Assembly (NCBI RefSeq): GCF_004364575.1
Contig: NZ_SOAG01000005.1
Span: 1 to 64,000, forward strand
Length of the DNA stretch: 64,000 nucleotides
Direction of reading: 5' to 3'
From: Myroides indicus
GTDB taxonomy: Bacteria > Bacteroidota > Bacteroidia > Flavobacteriales > Flavobacteriaceae
Below are positions 49,227-52,404 of the stretch, one piece after another. The position numbers and the translations under genes were made by a program. Each line of letters starts with the position of its first letter. Positions within the stretch are counted from its first letter, which is position 1. The notes beneath the pieces were generated by a model. It was not told where the DNA came from. It ran no database searches and was given only the letters and a program-made list of their open reading frames with translations.

Positions 49227-51761
49227 ATGAAAAAACAATATAAAATAAGCGGCATGAGTTGCAATGGCTGCCGAACAAAAGTAGAACAAACTCTAAACGA
49301 AATAGCGAATATCAATGCTACAGTTTCGTTAGAGAAAGAACTGGCAGACATAGAAATGAAAGAACCTGTAGAAACCTCAATACTTCAAAAAGCGCTCTTA
49401 AAAAAAGGGCAATACATTTTGCAGGAAATAATGACGCACCCCGATGGAACAGAGGAGATTTTACCTCCGGTTGAAATCAGTGAAGAAGATCACTATCACC
49501 CCAAAATACCCAAAAATATGCAAAACAAAGCAGGTAAATATTTCTGTCCGATGTTATGTGAAGGGGACAAAATCTATGACAGTAATGTAGGCTGTCCGGT
49601 GTGCGGTATGAATCTTGAACAAATTCCGGCTCCAAAAATAGAAAAAACAGTATACTATTGCCCTATGCTTTGTGAAGGAGATAAAACTTACGATCACCCC
49701 GGATCATGTCCGGTGTGCGGTATGAATTTAGTTGCCAAATCCATCGCAATAGAACCGGAAGATACAACGTATAAAGAAATGGTAAAGAAACTAAAGTTAT
49801 CTATTGCGTTTACCATTCCTGTTTTTATACTTTCTATGGGGGGTATGATTTCCAATAATCCTTTAAATGAAATCCTTTCGCATCAAGCTAATAATTATCT
49901 GCAGTTTTTATTTACTATTCCAGTTGTCTATTTCTGCTGGATATTTTTTCAAAGAGCATGGACATCGTTTAAAACTTGGAATTTAAATATGTTCAGTCTA
50001 ATTGGATTGGGGGCAGCAGCCGGACTCATATTTAGTGTTTTTGCCTTGTTTTTTCCGGGTATTTTTCCAGAAGATTTTAAAGGCGAACACGGCATTCATT
50101 TGTATTTTGAGTCCGTAGCCGTAATTCTCACGCTGGTATTAGTTGGTCAGGTTATGGAAGCCAAAGCCCACAGTAAAACTAATACAGCTATCAAGGAATT
50201 ATTAAAACTATCCCCTACCGAAGCTACTTTGATAACTGAAAATGGTGAAGACAAAATTGCTATTGAAAATATTGTAAAAGGAAATAAATTGCGCGTTAAA
50301 CCCGGCGAAAAAATCCCGGTTGACGGAGTTATTGCGGAAGGAGAAAGTTACATTGACGAATCTATGATTACCGGAGAACCTATTCCTGTACACAAAAAAT
50401 CAAGTGATAAAGTAATATCCGGAACTATTAACGGTAATAGCACCTTTATTATGATTGCAGAAAAAGTAGGAAGCGAAACTCTCCTGTCACAAATCATTGA
50501 AATGGTCAATAATGCTAGCCGTTCCAGAGCACCCATACAAAAATTAGCAGATAAGGTTGCGAAATATTTTGTTCCAACAGTTATAGCTATAGCTATCCTT
50601 ACATTTATTTTATGGAAACTATTAGGTCCTCAGCCAACTTTAGTTTATGCATTTGTAAATGCACTAGCAGTGTTAATTATTGCCTGTCCGTGTGCATTAG
50701 GACTCGCCACGCCAATGTCCGTTATGGTAGGAATTGGTAAAGGTGCTCAAAACGGAGTTTTAATCAAAAACGCTGAAGCACTTGAAACAGCTAATAAAAT
50801 AAACGTTTTAATTACGGATAAAACAGGAACACTAACCGAGGGCAAACCATCTGTAGAAAAAATAATTTCACTTTCCAACGAATATACTCCTGATGATTTA
50901 CTTGCCTTATCTGCTTCATTAAACCAAAATAGCGAACACGCTTTATCAAAAGCCTTTATATCTAAAGCAAAAGAAAAAAACACTTCTCTCTCTCCTGTTA
51001 AAATGTTTGTCAATCAAACCGGAAAAGGAATTCAGGGAATTGTGGATAAAAAGCGCATCTCTTTAGGAAATTCTGCATTAATGCAAACCATAGGAATTAC
51101 AATATCTGACAAATTACTTGAACAAGCATCTAAAGAACAGCTGCTTGGAAAAACCGTTTCTTATCTCGCTGAAAATAAAATAATAATCGGTTATGTCGTA
51201 CTGTTCGACAAAATTAAAGAAAGTAGCAAAGAAACTATTCGATTGCTTCACGAAAAAGGTATTGAAGTAGTTATGATTACCGGAGATAATCCAAATACGG
51301 CAAAAGCAGTTGCGGATGAATTAGGAATAGATGATTTTATAGCGGAAGCATTGCCACAAGATAAGTTAGAAGCTATTAAAAAATTACAGGAACAAGGTAA
51401 AATCGTTGCAATGGCAGGAGACGGCATCAACGATGCGCCTGCATTAGCACAAGCTAATATAGGAATTTCGATGGGAACCGGAACAGATGTAGCAATAGAA
51501 AGCTCAGAAGTTACCTTATTGCAGGGAGATATCAGCGGAATACACAAAGTAATTAAATTGAGTCACAAAGTAATGCAGAATATTAAACAGAATCTGTTTT
51601 TTGCTTTTATTTACAATACTATAGGAATTCCCATAGCAGCAGGCATACTATATCCTGTTTTCGGAATTGTTCTATCGCCAATGATAGCTGCATTGGCAAT
51701 GAGTTTCAGCTCGGTATCCGTTATTTTAAATTCACTCCGATTGAAAAATATCAGGCTATAA
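49227..51761 (+). CDS. Copper-type heavy-metal P1B-ATPase
   Basis: An 844-residue cation pump of the CopA type. An N-terminal HMA domain has the metal site GMSCNGC (residues 8-14). Two tandem heavy-metal-binding repeats follow, FCPMLCEGDKIYDSN with CPVCGMNLEQ and YCPMLCEGDKTYDHP with CPVCGMNLVA. The membrane core has the ion motif ACPCALGLATP with Cys487-Pro-Cys489, the phosphorylation site Asp531 in ITDKTGTLTEGKP, and the hinge GDGINDAPALAQ. The CPC motif indicates copper(I) or silver export to the periplasm. No CopZ, CusB or CopY-like gene lies beside it. Confidence 0.93.
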   Translation: MKKQYKISGMSCNGCRTKVEQTLNEIANINATVSLEKELADIEMKEPVETSILQKALLKKGQYILQEIMTHPDGTEEILPPVEISEEDHYHPKIPKNMQNKAGKYFCPMLCEGDKIYDSNVGCPVCGMNLEQIPAPKIEKTVYYCPMLCEGDKTYDHPGSCPVCGMNLVAKSIAIEPEDTTYKEMVKKLKLSIAFTIPVFILSMGGMISNNPLNEILSHQANNYLQFLFTIPVVYFCWIFFQRAWTSFKTWNLNMFSLIGLGAAAGLIFSVFALFFPGIFPEDFKGEHGIHLYFESVAVILTLVLVGQVMEAKAHSKTNTAIKELLKLSPTEATLITENGEDKIAIENIVKGNKLRVKPGEKIPVDGVIAEGESYIDESMITGEPIPVHKKSSDKVISGTINGNSTFIMIAEKVGSETLLSQIIEMVNNASRSRAPIQKLADKVAKYFVPTVIAIAILTFILWKLLGPQPTLVYAFVNALAVLIIACPCALGLATPMSVMVGIGKGAQNGVLIKNAEALETANKINVLITDKTGTLTEGKPSVEKIISLSNEYTPDDLLALSASLNQNSEHALSKAFISKAKEKNTSLSPVKMFVNQTGKGIQGIVDKKRISLGNSALMQTIGITISDKLLEQASKEQLLGKTVSYLAENKIIIGYVVLFDKIKESSKETIRLLHEKGIEVVMITGDNPNTAKAVADELGIDDFIAEALPQDKLEAIKKLQEQGKIVAMAGDGINDAPALAQANIGISMGTGTDVAIESSEVTLLQGDISGIHKVIKLSHKVMQNIKQNLFFAFIYNTIGIPIAAGILYPVFGIVLSPMIAALAMSFSSVSVILNSLRLKNIRL

Positions 51762-51778
51762 AACCAATGATATTTTTA

Positions 51779-51786
51779 TACCTTTG
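51779..51786 (+). promoter_or_regulatory. Promoter -7 box of the structured leader / DUF805 gene
   Basis: TACCTTTG fits TAnnTTTG exactly. It is 297 bases upstream of the DUF805 ATG, so the transcript would carry a leader of about 290 bases. Confidence 0.5.
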
Positions 51787-51847
51787 TAAAAAATAAAAAC
51801 TCGTAAATATGAATTAAAAAACAACAACTTACATATAAAAAACCAGC

Positions 51848-52041
51848 GTTTCGCTTTAAAGTTTCCTTTAATCTGAAATCTACCACATTATCTGAAGAAT
51901 CACAGGAGAGTAAAAGCGAAAACGCCTATAATATGCGTGGGCGTTCTCTTTTGCTTTGTGGTTCGGGTTCGTGGTAGAGCCTCAGATAACAAGTAATGAG
52001 AATTAGCTCACGCTCATTGTATAATACCCAAAAAGCGAAAC
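51848..52041 (+). ncRNA. Structured RNA leader upstream of the DUF805 gene (candidate cis-regulatory RNA)
   Basis: Hand pairing shows: a closing helix GTTTCGCTTT (51848-51857) with AAAGCGAAAC (52032-52041); a small hairpin ttaaag-tttc-ctttaa near 51856-51871; helix C, TCTACCAC (51879-51886) with GTGGTAGA (51971-51978); helix E, TTATCTGA (51888-51895) with TCAGATAA (51982-51989); a long imperfect hairpin from 51901 to 51960 with core aacgcc/ggcgtt; and a hairpin aatgag...ctcatt (51995-52018). Helices C and E cross, so they form a pseudoknot or exclude each other. From memory, a survey of conserved bacterial RNAs named motifs DUF805 and DUF805b for RNAs ahead of such genes; whether this is one of them is not verified. 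Confidence 0.6.
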
Positions 52042-52083
52042 ATAGAAAAAACCTTATATATACTAATCTTTAAACTTAAAGCT

Positions 52084-52404
52084 ATGTTTAAAAGACCTTT
52101 TTCATTTGAGGGTCGTATCAGAAGAACTGAATACGGACTCAGTTTAGTCATTTACGCTATTTGTGCTATAATTTTAAATATTATGATCGAAGTTGACGAA
52201 GAAACCTTCATTCTTCTATTCGCTTATACTCCACCTATGTTCTGGTTTTTATGGGCACAAAGCACTAAAAGATGTCATGATATTGGCAAAAGTGGTTGGT
52301 GGCAGTTTATTCCTTTTTACATACTTTGGTTGTTATTTGAAGATGGACAACACGCAAAAAATCAGTATGGTGATACTCCTAAAATATCTCGAAACACCAG
52401 GTGA
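52084..52404 (+). CDS. DUF805 family membrane protein
   Basis: A 106-residue inner-membrane protein. It matches the DUF805 pattern: an N-terminal FEGRIRRTEYGLSLVIYAIC, a second helix LFAYTPPMFWFLWAQ, then STKRCHDIGKSGWWQFIPFYILW and the closing QYGDTP. It has three predicted membrane helices. The family is common in bacteria and without an established function; some members appear in phage-related or stress contexts. Its start is 43 bases after the closing helix of a structured leader, which suggests RNA-level control. Confidence 0.88.
   Translation: MFKRPFSFEGRIRRTEYGLSLVIYAICAIILNIMIEVDEETFILLFAYTPPMFWFLWAQSTKRCHDIGKSGWWQFIPFYILWLLFEDGQHAKNQYGDTPKISRNTR

Follow-up and report, generated by a model that had tools for sequence, protein, structure and literature searches.

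The window analyzed here is a 64,000-nucleotide stretch of the Myroides indicus genome (assembly GCF_004364575.1, contig NZ_SOAG01000005.1, positions 1 to 64,000), and the leader region of interest occupies positions 51779-52083 on its + strand. A P-type ATPase gene lies upstream of this region and ends at 51761. We found no ORF of at least 50 aa between this end and the start of a DUF805 gene at 52084, in keeping with an earlier note on this DNA, which saw no open frame in the leader. The following features define the locus.

51779-51786, + strand: -7 promoter box of the Bacteroidota type, TACCTTTG, read from the sequence and starting 18 nt past the end of the P-type ATPase gene
51809-51817, + strand: two-codon mini-ORF ATG-AAT-TAA between promoter and core, read from the sequence
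51845-52014, + strand: core of the RNA family described below, a pseudoknotted leader (covariance model R2 match at 51844-52019, 147.8 bits, E 9.8e-26, a score that is not independent as this copy is one of the 14 R2 training sequences)
52084-52404, + strand: DUF805 gene, the first gene past the leader (Pfam PF05656, E 5.4e-18)

We take TAnnTTTG-type boxes to be the promoter consensus of Bacteroidota. Because the upstream P-type ATPase gene ends at 51761, the box at 51779 is a plausible start for the DUF805 message. This box and the three helices that the earlier note had described (two crossing helices of 8 bp and an outer helix of 10 bp) all sit in the sequence at exactly the coordinates that were claimed. 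The segment 51845-52045 had a predicted fold energy of -67.0 kcal/mol relative to -41.1 +/- 4.4 kcal/mol after shuffling (z = -6.0), and 0 of 200 dinucleotide shuffles of this segment folded as well as the real strand. The view that the leader is structured and pseudoknotted with compensatory changes is upheld by the comparison of its copies described below.

A BLAST search with the leader and its gene against 60 relatives returned matches in 8 genomes, M. indicus itself included. The sole match elsewhere that covered most of the RNA was in a genome of the same genus (G022; 72% identity, E 4.4e-14), where the copy precedes a type III methyltransferase gene. A 16-base pattern taken from the 5' end of the RNA occurred at five sites in 4 of 299 genomes of the genus, the window included, and the same RNA shape was present at all five sites ahead of four different genes. 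With a covariance model built from these five genus copies (R1), we detected matches at E <=0.01 in 8 of 397 genomes of the family, one with four copies and one (G488) with a partial match only (L062, E 0.0077), which was excluded from alignments. A second covariance model (R2; 14 training copies, 172 model positions) had matches in 71 of 296 genomes sampled from the order, 41 of which carried at least two, as well as in 64 of 295 sampled genomes of the class and, at E <=0.001, in 21 of 198 genomes from the phylum, six of them outside the class; the samples are not disjoint, and the genome of the window is among them. Up to eight copies were found per genome, and all copy counts are lower bounds because the 7-14 best first-look candidates were scored per genome. 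Among the matches listed, the whole model was spanned in the order and phylum samples and in all but two cases in the class sample. The window copy likewise matches R2 at full length, P1-P5 included. An antisense match in L051 (22 bits) was removed by a stricter cut-off.

As a rough negative control, we searched 137 kb around 36 other DUF805 genes and observed one strong match (54.2 bits; L016, Pedobacter sp. JY14-1), located on the strand opposite the DUF805 gene and pointing away from it; the next-best match reached 18.2 bits (E 0.23). The earlier note had suggested aligning the upstream regions of DUF805 genes in related genomes. At E <=0.01, 0 of these 36 loci have the RNA directly upstream of the gene, which speaks against a link to DUF805.

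We aligned 149 copies of the RNA, 69 in a first set and 80 in a second. The first set comprises the best matches of their searches, including 14 training copies, and its members are not independent. In these 69 copies, 32 modelled pairs form in 92.3% of alignment cells compared to 70.1% after shuffling and 32-46% after sliding, percentages that depend partly on the model to which the alignment was fitted. Two-sided changes occurred in 27 of the 32 pairs (453 cells versus 136 in the control). We also applied a swap test, which asks whether two regions of one copy pair better than regions of different copies over 10,000 permutations, to 35 copies with <70% identity and to 16 copies with <66% identity. 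On the 35 copies, P0, P1, P2, P3, P4, P5, P6, PK1, and P7 each gave 0/10,000. On the 16 copies, P0, P2, P3, P4, P6, and PK1 again gave 0, with 34, 107, and 768 per 10,000 for P1, P7, and P5, respectively. P5 misses the test on the 16 copies because its sequence hardly varies, with its strand GCGUGGGC nearly invariant at 91-100% identity in the 69 copies. P0, P4, P6, PK1, and P7 were outside the search model. The elements of the fold are as follows, with swap-test values given per 10,000 permutations.

51845-51855, + strand: P0, a local 5' hairpin AGCG-UUU-CGCU with its 5' strand in common with P1 (swap test 0/10,000 on both 35 and 16 copies)
51845-51849, + strand: P1 5' strand AGCGU, partner 52010-52014 (97.3% of cells paired; two-sided changes in 2 of 5 pairs)
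51862-51867, + strand: PK1 5' strand UUUCCU, partner 51904-51909, crossing P2, P3, and P4 (swap test 0/10,000)
51871-51876, + strand: P2 5' strand AUCUGA, partner 51982-51987 (two-sided changes in 7 of 8 modelled pairs; swap test 0/10,000)
51879-51886, + strand: P3 5' strand UCUACCAC, partner 51971-51978, the first 8-bp helix of the earlier note (99.8% of cells paired; two-sided changes in 6 of 6 modelled pairs)
51888-51895, + strand: 5' strand of the second 8-bp helix, partner 51982-51989 (found in this copy, not conserved across the family)
51897-51904, + strand: P4 5' strand GAAUCACA, partner 51957-51964, its last base being the first of the PK1 3' strand (swap test 0/10,000)
51904-51909, + strand: PK1 3' strand AGGAGA (swap test 0/10,000)
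51909-51915, + strand: 5' strand of an inner helix below P5, partner 51949-51955 (88.5% of cells paired; two-sided changes in 7 of 7 pairs)
51921-51945, + strand: P5 hairpin AACGCC...GCGUGGGCGUU (89.8% of cells paired; two-sided changes in 5 of 6 pairs)
51957-51964, + strand: P4 3' strand UGUGGUUC (swap test 0/10,000)
51966-51981, + strand: P6 hairpin, GGUU at 51966-51969 with AGCC at 51978-51981, the second pseudoknot (swap test 0/10,000)
51982-51987, + strand: P2 3' strand UCAGAU (swap test 0/10,000)
52010-52014, + strand: P1 3' strand ACGCU (window sequence)
52032-52041, + strand: 3' strand of the outer 10-bp helix, partner 51848-51857 (real, not general)

Comparison of the copies establishes a predicted core that measures about 170 nt and consists of P1 as the closing helix, the stacked helices P2-P3-P4-P5 as an arm, PK1 reaching across this arm, and hairpin P6. 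The loop of P6 is the 3' strand of P3, with one base in common, and P6 thereby crosses P3. Both pseudoknot pairings, PK1 and P6, are present in the window copy and covary across the family. P0 and P1 have their 5' strand in common and both covary, so that these two helices would form only as mutually exclusive alternatives. The outer pair of P1 is broken in 6 of 68 distinct rows. Considered one by one, copies exceeded the 95th percentile of swaps in 59 of 69 cases for P4, 58 for P2, 42 for P3, 24 for PK1, 13 for P7, 8 for P1, 6 for P0, and 3 for P6, the last because the stem is short. Support for the short helices thus comes from the group and not from single copies.

The earlier note had read the two 8-bp helices as a crossing pair expected to show compensatory changes, enclosed by the 10-bp helix. 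Both 8-bp helices are present in the window, and the first, as P3, is conserved with compensatory changes in all of its 6 modelled pairs. The second is not conserved: 9370/10,000 permutations were at least as high on the 16 diverged copies, a pairing score of >=14 was reached in 2 of 149 copies, and its 3' strand belongs by homolog comparison to P2 (51871-51876 with 51982-51987). Similarly, the 10-bp helix exists in the window and is not general in the family, with 9736/10,000 permutations at least as high on the 16 diverged copies. The outer-helix regions did score above swaps on all 149 copies (0/10,000), a signal that probably comes from a single large subgroup whose members resemble each other and carry a CUAAGC segment further downstream. 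A conserved switch made of the second crossing helix and the outer helix is therefore not borne out by the diverged copies. We also considered, and do not claim, an exchange of strands involving the 3' strand of P5 and the CCCACGC end, for which support was inconsistent at 1412 (35 copies), 58 (16 copies), and 0 (149 copies) per 10,000.

In the first set, the RNA lies mostly in sense orientation close to gene starts. Within the 1200 nt that follow the RNA, 61 of 69 copies have their longest ORF on the sense strand, and upstream neighbors are on the same strand in 43 cases and on the opposite strand in 25. For 56 of the 68 copies with an ORF, the chosen ORF (the longest ATG frame of at least 50 aa starting near the RNA) starts within 80 nt, with a median of 49 nt. 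The second set consists of 80 copies chosen by hand among the listed matches that had no locus yet, and a single family of the order contributed most of them. The chosen ORF starts within 80 nt in 32 of these 80 copies, with some ORFs short and doubtful, and many of the remaining copies form a subgroup with leaders of about 100-430 nt and a looser gene assignment. In 14 copies of one subgroup, described further below, 47-53 nt separate the core from the AUG, and the genes that follow are of several kinds, some of them interrelated. By its position, the leader is probably cis-regulatory.

The downstream genes are varied. Among the 68 first-set proteins, for which 25 of 26 families were listed, we observed response regulators (7), N6/N4 DNA methylases (6), type III methylation subunits (4), N6 methylases (3), HsdR N-termini (2 and 1 with two models), MmeI (2), DUF805 proteins (2, the window and L063), and many singletons; a PADLOC type III methyltransferase model matched 8 of the 68. 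The 74 second-set proteins included sigma-70 region 4 proteins (7), TonB plug proteins (7), DNA methylases (2), and no DUF805 protein. Lipoprotein-like starts were seen by eye among the downstream proteins. The genes behind this RNA likely matter for phage defense, signaling, and the cell surface, and the RNA could explain control of some type III methyltransferase genes and regulators in Bacteroidota. Varied downstream genes together with the nearly invariant P5 strand would fit one trans-acting binder, with a conserved RNA-binding protein recognizing the core and controlling a regulon with no small-molecule ligand involved. However, folds as elaborate as this one, with its two pseudoknots, are typical of RNAs that bind a ligand, albeit not proof of one, and we consider a protein-binding leader unlikely.

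The occurrence of several copies per genome before different genes, the patchy presence of the RNA, and the one subgroup of similar copies would also be expected of a mobile repeat, such as a MITE, inserted by chance upstream of genes. Most copies are instead diverged with compensatory changes rather than near-identical, and their orientation is constrained. No copy was found on plasmid records by BLAST with four RNA copies as queries or in a phage look-up by BLAST with one query, and of two scans of viral contigs with sequence patterns, one gave no copy and the other a single copy, which the model confirmed at 50 bits. These findings make a mobile repeat highly improbable.

The earlier note had linked the leader to the conserved RNAs associated with DUF805 genes, and this link did not hold. 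Rfam 15 gave no match across the whole window at gathering scores, and a scan around the leader at E values up to 10 gave unrelated sub-threshold matches only, with neither RF03081 nor RF02914 among them. The RF03081 and RF02914 models did match 4 of 20 other DUF805-gene loci scanned (1 and 3, respectively; RF03081 in L029). At 33 homolog loci besides the window, no Rfam family matched the core at gathering scores, and permissive scans of two homolog loci gave sub-threshold matches only. DUF805b (RF02914) and DUF805 (RF03081) are likewise leader RNAs of Bacteroidota and are found at DUF805-gene loci. In contrast, the new RNA mostly precedes other genes, with a DUF805 gene downstream in 2/68 and 0/74 cases, and has 172 model positions relative to 35 and 68 in DUF805b and DUF805, respectively. 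Since position before a DUF805 gene is not a trait of the family and neither model matched, we rejected membership of the window leader in the DUF805 RNAs. That the RNA is a divergent member of the Rfam DUF805/DUF805b clan is barely credible: the window gene does encode a DUF805 protein, and in one genome (G380; L056, L063, L064, L065) each of the four copies found is followed by DUF805b at a distance of 8-29 nt, but the two elements are separate and adjacent there, and the window matched neither model even at permissive cut-offs. Because DUF805b follows all four G380 copies, composite leaders exist, and the small DUF805b element can form part of a longer one. The genes after the G380 composite leaders comprise two with lipoprotein-like starts (by eye), one DUF805 gene, and one other.

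Signals flanking the core recur across the first set. The 150 nt upstream contain a TAnnTTTG box in 56 of 69 copies versus 3-7 of 69 in four control windows, and ACATAT or ACATAA occurs just 5' of the core in 31 of 69 copies versus 0 and 1 in controls. A T5 run directly follows P1 in 52 of 69 copies, whereas a control region further downstream has one in 6 of 69. This run is absent from 17 copies, among them the window, where CATTGTAT follows ACGCT. Beyond the U-run and shortly before the start codon, the bases just 5' of the P1 3' strand find a further pairing partner, a helix that we call P7. P7 is supported at the level of the group, most clearly in one subgroup; the window P7, at 5 bp, is chance-like, and the combination of U-run and P7 is common, not universal, in the family.

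These flanking signals bear on two further explanations. In a transcription attenuator, P1 and the U-run would act as an intrinsic terminator and P0 as the antiterminator. The enrichment of the T5 run after P1 and the covariation of two helices with a strand in common suit this arrangement, but usual terminators do not have a stem around some 150 nt, as this one would, 17 of the 69 copies including the window lack the T5 run, and a P7 pairing past the U-run implies a functional read-through transcript. We regard attenuation as the main function of P1 as quite unlikely. Alternatively, the promoter box and the U-run might mark the two ends of an independent, trans-acting small RNA to which the following gene is incidental, and many second-set copies do lie farther from the next gene. 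Against a trans-acting RNA stand the sense bias of downstream genes relative to upstream neighbors, the narrow start-codon spacing in one subgroup, and the pairing of P7 across the U-run towards the gene, which together render it very unlikely.

Start-stop mini-ORFs were also found upstream of the core. In near relatives, ATG-ATT-TAA, ATG-AAC-TAA, ATG-AGT-TAA, ATG-AAT-TAA, and ATG-AAA-TAA lie 32-50 nt before the core. Of 42 post-promoter segments in the first set, 17 had an ATG (16.6 expected), and each of the 17 holds one closed within two codons, relative to 4.7 expected and a maximum of 10 over 300 shuffle rounds, a significance that is overstated as the RNA copies are kin. Of the 20 segments tested in the second set, 6 had an ATG and 4 had one closed in this way, versus 2.0 expected and a maximum of 7, which is not significant. 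This test was limited to the segment after the promoter box, and some start-stop pairs lie at or before the box. Either the start-stop mini-ORF has a role, or selection purges frames that would carry ribosomes into the structured RNA. Mini-ORFs of the form ATG-X-TAA were seen 25-50 nt before the core in L050, L051, L053, L054, L066, L112, and L120.

Considering homology, fold, and the exclusivity of P0 and P1 together, our comparisons of genomic sequences establish a widespread, often multi-copy family of predicted pseudoknotted leader RNAs in Bacteroidota, and we infer regulation in cis. On balance, we favor the view that this family, which is absent from Rfam 15, serves as a cis-acting regulatory leader. 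The most likely switch would be the alternation of P0 and P1. In this model, the RNA would fold during transcription, and a signal would choose between a P0 state and a P1 state, the latter possibly with P7; the choice would then alter either how accessible the start codon is or how often transcription continues past the U-run that follows P1.

One subgroup of 14 copies, picked by eye from 27 copies matching a loose P8 hairpin pattern, suggests how such a switch might reach the start codon. In these copies, hairpin P8 carries the P7 partner in its loop, and its own 3' side can instead pair near the AUG to form hairpin P9, with a best stem of 4-7 bp whose end is no more than 4 nt from the AUG in 12 of 14 copies. 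The swap test on this subgroup gave 0/10,000 for P7, an uninformative 8291/10,000 for P8, and a weak result for P9 (mean 12.4 versus 12.0; 420/10,000). P7 and P8 could compete with P9 beside the AUG, which would point to control of translation in this subgroup. The U-run after P1 would also allow transcription attenuation.

Because the downstream genes are so varied, the signal is probably global, such as a second messenger, stress, or translation state, rather than a metabolite of one pathway. In the window, the RNA would control the DUF805 gene, and the output may differ because this copy has no U-run and no convincing P7. We speculate that the unusual 10-bp outer pairing, which takes up strands of P0 and P1, may serve this copy as a local substitute. 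As a tentative extension, possible rather than probable, the family may constitute a riboswitch-like class across Bacteroidota, often multi-copy, in which a single global signal would tune how strongly genes for DNA-modification enzymes, response regulators, sigma factors, outer-membrane receptors, and lipoproteins are expressed. In a bolder form of this proposal, a ribosome held on the start-stop mini-ORF would decide between P0 and P1, and the leader would thereby sense translation initiation or termination.

Many structured leaders with comparable covariation have proved to be riboswitches or control elements bound by proteins. Like orphan riboswitch candidates, the new RNA is a pseudoknotted, multi-copy 5' leader with compensatory changes ahead of varied genes, and part of the family has alternative pairings near the start codon. 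Among these riboswitch-like features, the conserved fold and the exclusivity of P0 and P1 are supported, and the AUG-proximal P9 is weak. Unlike these candidates, the gene set of the new RNA points to no pathway, and the likeness is one of kind and not of family. The RNA occurs in about a quarter of the sampled order genomes, and the defined construct of about 170 nt and the accompanying gene list offer a starting point for discovery of a ligand or partner.

Our full-text searches, which covered the main texts of mostly open-access papers, listed no description of the RNA. The Flavo-1 RNA (RF01705) is listed for Bacteroidetes (PMC2864571). Matches to Flavo-1 are reported in 5' regions of Flavobacterium psychrophilum, where they seemed indistinctly sense or antisense (PMC9723704). 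Both RNAs occur in Bacteroidota, and the new RNA is mostly in sense orientation in contrast to the orientation reported for Flavo-1 (PMC9723704). Flavo-1 gave no match in our Rfam scans of the window and the 33 homolog loci. Two studies report 64 structured 5' regions in F. psychrophilum (PMC9723704) and thousands of RNA candidates from microbiomes (PMC8040213), and either candidate set may contain fragments of the new family.

Other observations concerned individual copies. A subgroup within L125-L183 with the core start AAGCTATTGCTTAG consists of similar copies with long leaders, with up to four among those fetched per genome. These copies frequently have a downstream CUAAGC, which is complementary to the 3' side of P0, and precede sigma-factor-like genes, TonB-receptor genes, and a repeated gene of no known kind. 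The copy on a predicted viral contig (L205, 10274-10440; IMGVR_UViG_3300026911_000014) lies 46 nt ahead of a gene for a 160-aa protein that is membrane-protein-like. Finally, the type III methyltransferase frame of G022 (L002, about 2195-2240) reads ...CHSERSEES..., which looks like a small palindromic repeat that has entered the gene without breaking its frame.
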